Below are positions 32,224 through 47,334 of a DNA stretch of 64,000 nt, piece by piece. Position 1 is the stretch's first letter, and every line of letters starts with the position of its first letter. Under the pieces are notes generated by a model. That model did no database searches and was not told the DNA's origin. It saw only the letters and a program-made list of their open reading frames with translations. Where the stretch lies: contig JAFGSY010000013.1 in assembly GCA_016934315.1 (NCBI GenBank), positions 62,001 through 126,000 of the forward strand, given 5' to 3'. This DNA comes from Candidatus Anaeroferrophillus wilburensis. Its GTDB lineage: Bacteria > Desulfobacterota > Anaeroferrophillalia > Anaeroferrophillales > Anaeroferrophillaceae. Both the position numbers and the translations under genes were made by a program.

Positions 32224-32278
32224 GATTTTTCCTCCCTGAGTATGCCTGCTAAAGCATACACATCAGAACCAAACAAGC

Positions 32279-32440
32279 TTGATGGCTTCGCAACAACTCC
32301 ATCTTCTTCGTTAACCTGCAACCTTCGTCACTGGGTTGTACTGGATGGTCAACACATTCATCAGGTTTTGCTTGCCTCAAATCTGGAGCCGTTACTGCGC
32401 CATCCGGTTTGCAAAGCTTTTTGCCAGTTGTTATGGGTTC
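32279..32440 (-). ncRNA. Repeated structured leader element, copy A (upstream of livK)
   Basis: On the minus strand this 162-nt stretch is about 80% identical by hand alignment to 47171-47334 on the plus strand. Shared helices can be drawn. GGATGG (32405-32400) pairs with CCATCC (32348-32343), CAACC (32338-32334) with GGTTG (32323-32319), and GATGG with CCATC near the 3' end. An outer 11-bp stem CAAGCTTGATG (32450-32440)/CATCAAGCTTG (32284-32274) closes copy A only. A promoter sits immediately upstream, so the transcript would begin at about the outer stem. It ends 55 nt before livK. It is probably a cis-regulatory RNA; a dispersed non-coding repeat is the alternative. Confidence 0.7.
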
Positions 32441-32455
32441 ATCAAGCTTGAAAAA

Positions 32456-47140: not shown

Positions 47141-47170
47141 CGGCAGTTGTTAACGACCTCTAATAAAAAT

Positions 47171-47334
47171 GAACTCGCAACAACCGGCAAAAAGCTTTTA
47201 AAAACCGGATGGCACAATAACGGCTCAGATTCGAGGCAGGCAAAACCTGAGGAATGGGTTTTGTACATCCAGTGCAACCCAGTGAGGAAGGTTGTCGCTT
47301 AACGGAGAAGATGACGTTGCTACAAAGCCATCAA
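47171..47334 (+). ncRNA. Repeated structured leader element, copy B (upstream of ccsA-like operon)
   Basis: This is the plus-strand partner of 32279-32440. Conserved blocks include GGCAAAAAGCTTT, ACCGGATGGC, GCAAAACCTGA, CAACCCAGTGA and AAGCCATCAA. The CAACC/GGTTG helix (47275-47279, 47290-47294) and GATG/CATC (47310-47313, 47329-47332) are kept, and GGATG pairs with CATCC (47266-47270). The 5' and 3' ends have changed together: GCAAC/GTTGC here, AACAACT/AGTTGTT in copy A. Indels of 1, 1 and 2 nt between copies break any common reading frame, which argues against coding. It ends 22 nt before the CcsA-like ATG. Confidence 0.7.

Follow-up and report, generated by a model that had tools for sequence, protein, structure and literature searches.

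Elements resembling leader RNAs upstream of livK and a CcsA/TonB operon are probable insertions of a short mobile element with a structured core

Two related elements in the window

The window is the whole 64,000 nt stretch that was analyzed, taken from contig JAFGSY010000013.1 of Candidatus Anaeroferrophillus wilburensis. It carries two similar elements, copies A and B, each in the 5' region of a transport operon and in the sense direction of the gene that follows: livK starts 57 nt past copy A, and a CcsA-like gene lies 24 nt past copy B. This placement, together with an identity of about 80% and the lack of any common reading frame, had been reported in a sequence-only reading of the same DNA, and all three hold, as the copies are 82% identical over 165 alignment columns, with small indels that break any shared frame. 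The limits given in that reading are a few bases off those defined by terminal repeats and flanking duplications, which are used in Table 1. A TTGACA promoter was also described as abutting copy A; the motif is present about 36 bp upstream, outside the element, and is not followed by a good -10 box. A consensus scan called no promoter on the strand of copy A, and none is apparent in either copy.

Across genomes, three related segments are recognizable in the element: L1 forms its 5' end and R its 3' end, while L2, which directly repeats L1, lies about 40 nt in from the 5' end. R is pairable with either L1 or L2. The unit therefore reads L1-spacer-L2-core-R (Table 1). A search of Rfam 15 gave no match to the element in the window at gathering score, consistent with the earlier view that it does not belong to a recognized riboswitch class. 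The same search of 16 loci from other genomes returned only unrelated 6S RNA and tRNA, and nothing relevant was found at weak thresholds.

Table 1. Features of copies A and B, in window coordinates
Feature	Position	Strand	Evidence
Copy A, whole element (L1-spacer-L2-core-R)	32281..32443	-	Terminal repeats and 6 bp duplication; 90% identity to family consensus
Copy A, target-site duplication at 5' end, AAGCTT	32444..32449	.	6/6 identical to other flank
Copy A, target-site duplication at 3' end, AAGCTT	32275..32280	.	
Copy A, L1, 5' terminal inverted repeat	32427..32443	-	Consensus GATGAACTCGTAACAAC, complementary to R
Copy A, R, 3' terminal inverted repeat	32281..32297	-	Contig C13:94281-94297, 1 mismatch
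Copy A, structured core hairpin (L2-core-R)	32281..32405	-	Covariance model, E 3.9e-16; fold z -4.6
Copy B, whole element	47168..47332	+	Terminal repeats and 6 bp duplication; 85% identity to family consensus
Copy B, target-site duplication at 5' end, AATAAA	47162..47167	.	6/6 match
Copy B, target-site duplication at 3' end, AATAAA	47333..47338	.	
Copy B, structured core hairpin (L2-core-R)	47207..47332	+	Covariance model, E 3.3e-12; fold z -2.6

Dispersal, ends and target sites

The description of a two-copy element is correct for the window but not for the genome (2.70 Mb, 52 contigs), where copy B has 31 matches and the family consensus has 42. A flank-inclusive alignment of the copies defines a full-length unit of about 163 bp with the ends GATGAACTCGTAACAAC...GTTGTTACGAAGCCATC. 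These are 17 bp terminal inverted repeats, with 14 of the 17 consensus bases inverted-complementary, and they are directly flanked by a 6 bp direct repeat. In 31 copies of the same genome, 123 of the 186 flank positions agree, whereas swapped flanks give an expectation of 82 (z 8.0). Length 6 alone gives a peak, and no signal is left at lengths of 8, 9 and 10. The target consensus is approximately CAANNTTG, corresponding to sites of the AANNTT type. An equivalent duplication test in other genomes gave a z of about 7. Among recent copies, 15 of 20 show a 6/6 duplication at the element border and four others 4/6 or 5/6, while the apparent 6/6 duplication at locus L278, TTTTTT, is spurious.

In 1.39 Mb of loci, a strict search for terminal-repeat pairs with a duplication of at least 5/6 recovered 30 pairs, all 120–220 bp long, and none that were 230–7,900 bp apart. 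Since end pairs occur only at element length, the contribution of chance is almost nil. In one relative (G001), a search that allowed up to one mismatch found more than 80 end repeats, versus one in a reversed-pattern control. Very many degenerate copies were seen in this genome (loci L100–L119), several of which have other short inserts inside. Locus L020 carries a 75 bp mini-derivative (326–400) consisting only of element ends. A 2.3 kb stretch between inverted ends at this locus was considered as a transposon and rejected, as it contains ordinary genes and the separate mini-derivative.

By BLAST, the element was found in 27 of 59 genomes (its own included). Of 297 genomes taken from across the phylum, 127, representing 89 of 198 genera, have a match to a covariance model of the core, in a scan that capped the number of matches scored for each genome. 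A core pattern matches at least 120 stretches of named genomes, and carriers among the matches listed include Desulfosarcina, Desulfobulbaceae, Syntrophaceae and a Geobacter (locus L189) and, beyond the phylum, several Nitrospirae (Nitrospirota)/Thermodesulfovibrio records. A blastn search for the element in phage and plasmid records gave no match. One IMG/VR contig has a core match (locus L240, 7843–7882), and carriage by a prophage is possible.

A short, multicopy, noncoding unit with terminal inverted repeats and a target-site duplication of fixed length has the hallmarks of a MITE, and we consider it very probable (roughly 85%) that copies A and B are insertions of one MITE-like, short, non-autonomous mobile DNA element. 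It would insert at AANNTT-type sites, mostly intergenic, duplicating 6 bp, and a transposase supplied in trans would cut at L1 and R. The length of the duplication argues for a DDE-type enzyme in this role. No autonomous partner with the same ends was detected in the 1.39 Mb of loci (end pairs with a 6 bp or 4 bp duplication), and none of the DDE_Tnp_1, Y1_Tnp or rve genes that were located is flanked by element ends. Several of the genomes that carry the element have few such genes or none; G001, despite its numerous end repeats, has almost no transposase of these three families.

One set of copies has a feature that counts against the MITE-like reading. At loci L269–L288, from other genomes of the phylum, nearly every copy has different bases at positions 4–10 of L1, although the copies are otherwise near-identical. 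No such variation is seen in the R tip, in the inner part AAAAAGTC or, for the most part, in the spacer, and the 6 bp duplication is still exact despite the variable tip. An L1 tip that varies in nearly all recent copies is odd for an end bound by a transposase.

The core hairpin and its two types of ends

The segment from L2 through the core to R forms an imperfect hairpin of 125 nt. Folds of the sense-strand core are better than those of shuffled sequences in both copies (z values in Table 1), as compared to antisense z values of -2.4 (A) and -1.6 (B). The hairpin includes a nearly invariant, purine-rich internal loop, UGAGGAAUGAG / CGCARUGACGA, which can be read as single Watson-Crick pairs flanked by tandem G-A pairs.

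Conserved short helices and compensating changes in the end helices had been noted for the two copies in the sequence-only reading, and covariation in the core is confirmed by an alignment, built from sequence alone, of 27 copies that share one end type and come from many genomes. In this alignment, 94.5% of cells are paired, compared to only 28–46% in slid controls, 19 of the 39 pairs are changed on both sides, and cells with double changes number 83 versus 25 in shuffles (0/500). Pairing was counted for a single end type because RNAalifold, when run on a mixed alignment, set the two end types out of register. Helix mismatch cells of both end types, with a conserved U-G pair and a bulged pair left out, are G-T in 60 cases and A-C in 23 (p 6e-5; this p value and that of the shuffle comparison are optimistic because the copies are related). 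A structure selected as double-stranded DNA would give equal numbers of the two mismatches, so the written strand of the core seems to function in single-stranded form, either as RNA or as ssDNA.

In many genomes, the same core is found on other ends, CAGGYTGYTGAAAAA...TTTTTCARCAGCCTG (loci L120–L240, e.g. L128, L175 and L231). Elements with the CAGGYTGYTGAAAAA end type are flanked by a 4 bp YTAR duplication (CTAA, CTAG or TTAA) that is exact in 10 of 20 cases, with a z of 4.4 seen at length 4 only. We take this YTAR duplication to be reminiscent of the targets of the IS5 group. The presence of one core on two kinds of ends argues that it is more than filler.

An ordinary MITE needs neither a conserved, covarying core nor an asymmetry between strands, and these features argue against a plain MITE reading. 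We tentatively suggest, as a possible refinement, that the conserved unit is a structured single strand with a nearly invariant loop, carried on at least two transposase end types and with a fold needed for its spread or tolerance, i.e. a parasite or passenger of structured RNA that moves from one transposase to another. On the MITE-like reading in general, the core would be kept because a single strand of the element, either transcript or ssDNA, must fold, and the fold may serve spreading or keep read-through transcripts of the insertion harmless.

It is also conceivable, though doubtful, that the fold is a by-product of a DNA palindrome and has no single-strand role, with template switching in the quasi-palindrome and selection for matching ends giving rise to the compensatory changes. 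L1, L2 and R do change together between subfamilies, as would be seen with ends recognized by one protein or with arm correction. However, inner helices far from the ends also covary (columns 41–45 with 87–91), the nearly invariant loop has not been corrected to Watson-Crick pairs, and G-T mismatches exceed A-C. Strand asymmetry, and the occurrence of the same core on both kinds of ends, each with its own duplication length (6 bp at AANNTT, 4 bp at YTAR), would also suit an independent small RNA family that is the cargo of different transposases and only borrows their ends, but this is unlikely given that no promoter is apparent in copies A and B and that the placement of copies is not gene-like. 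The question raised is why a core carried by transposons should retain, on one strand, both a covarying fold and a non-canonical loop that is nearly invariant, in two phyla and on two kinds of ends; the boundaries, target site and covariance alignment make it testable.

Placement beside genes and comparison with known families

Genes around the copies were called by a simple ORF caller. Between co-directional genes, 17 copies are sense and 10 antisense in the genome of origin, and the corresponding numbers for loci from named genomes are 28 and 38; pooled, there are 45 sense and 48 antisense copies (p 0.84). Copies are also found between convergent genes, 7 in the genome of origin and 21 in others. 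The gene order CcsA/ResB/TonB is kept in three relatives (G009, G006 and G001; 46–69% protein identity), all of which have copies of the element elsewhere in the genome, but the element is absent in front of this operon, even at E = 1 and over at least 0.8 kb upstream. Among 21 relatives, no close homologue of livK was found.

The sequence-only reading had proposed a likely new cis-regulatory RNA in the leaders of the two transport operons, possibly sensing a shared ligand; such an RNA would control livK and the CcsA/TonB operon in the manner of a riboswitch. Consistent with this are the short distances and sense direction of A and B relative to their genes, the good, covarying fold, and a truncated remnant (the 5' 45 nt of the element; locus L025, 7568–7612, minus strand) directly preceding another gene for a LivK-like binding protein, but the proposal is made highly improbable by the 42 matches in the genome, their random orientation and occurrence at convergent sites, the footprints of transposition, and the three relatives in which the same operon lacks the element. 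Random positions and orientations with no covariation had been named beforehand as the mark of a dispersed repeat; positions and orientations are indeed random, and covariation is nonetheless present. With dozens of dispersed mobile copies, A and B are not a switch dedicated to the livK and CcsA/TonB genes downstream of them. If the inserted MITE-like element affects livK or the CcsA/TonB operon, it would do so incidentally, through the site where it landed. The insertion reading accounts for a whole class of what look like leader RNAs in Desulfobacterota and some Nitrospirota, and it is a caution that a mobile hairpin present in many copies can be taken for a riboswitch when tested by hand.

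In its many dispersed, intergenic copies, its hairpin with mismatches and its single-strand signature, the element resembles REP/BIME-like ssDNA hairpins, which are mobilized by a RAYT (Y1 tyrosine transposase). This reading is largely refuted by the 6 bp duplicated at the element, since HUH enzymes are not known to leave a target duplication, and by the absence of Y1_Tnp from three carriers (G000, G001 and G305).

Like the MITEs known from bacteria, the element is under 300 bp, has terminal inverted repeats, a short target duplication, many intergenic copies and no coding capacity, and its transcript is able to form a stable hairpin. Bacterial MITEs with hairpin-forming transcripts have already been described, for example QMITE2 of Coxiella burnetii and the Correia element of Neisseria (PMC10969869). 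Unlike them, the present family has an internal direct repeat (L2) of its left end, a covarying core that is conserved over at least two phyla and has a nearly invariant, purine-rich internal loop, and a core shared by two end types that differ in their duplications.

Two multicopy families reported in Geobacter may be its relatives and probably overlap with it. The Chunjie MITE of Geobacter uraniireducens (Chen et al. 2008, as described in PMC10969869) comes from a related host group and, at 178–235 bp, has 38 intergenic copies with repeats and duplications. For Geobacter metallireducens, the legend of Additional file 4 of PMC2700814 gives 24 multicopy intergenic 'predicted short RNA elements', and similar sequences are reported in Desulfotalea (PMC2700814). 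The palindrome given there for their center, GRCGTAGCGCTGCTACGCC, is similar to the apical stem GGCGTAG..CTACGCC of some copies of the present family (loci L132 and L209); a pattern joining this palindrome to the present 3' flank gave no match. On these descriptions, part of the present family may already be on record. Another RNA was observed less than 1 kb from one copy of the element: a fluoride riboswitch (Rfam RF01734, E 5.9e-12) at positions 198–261 of locus L288, on the minus strand.
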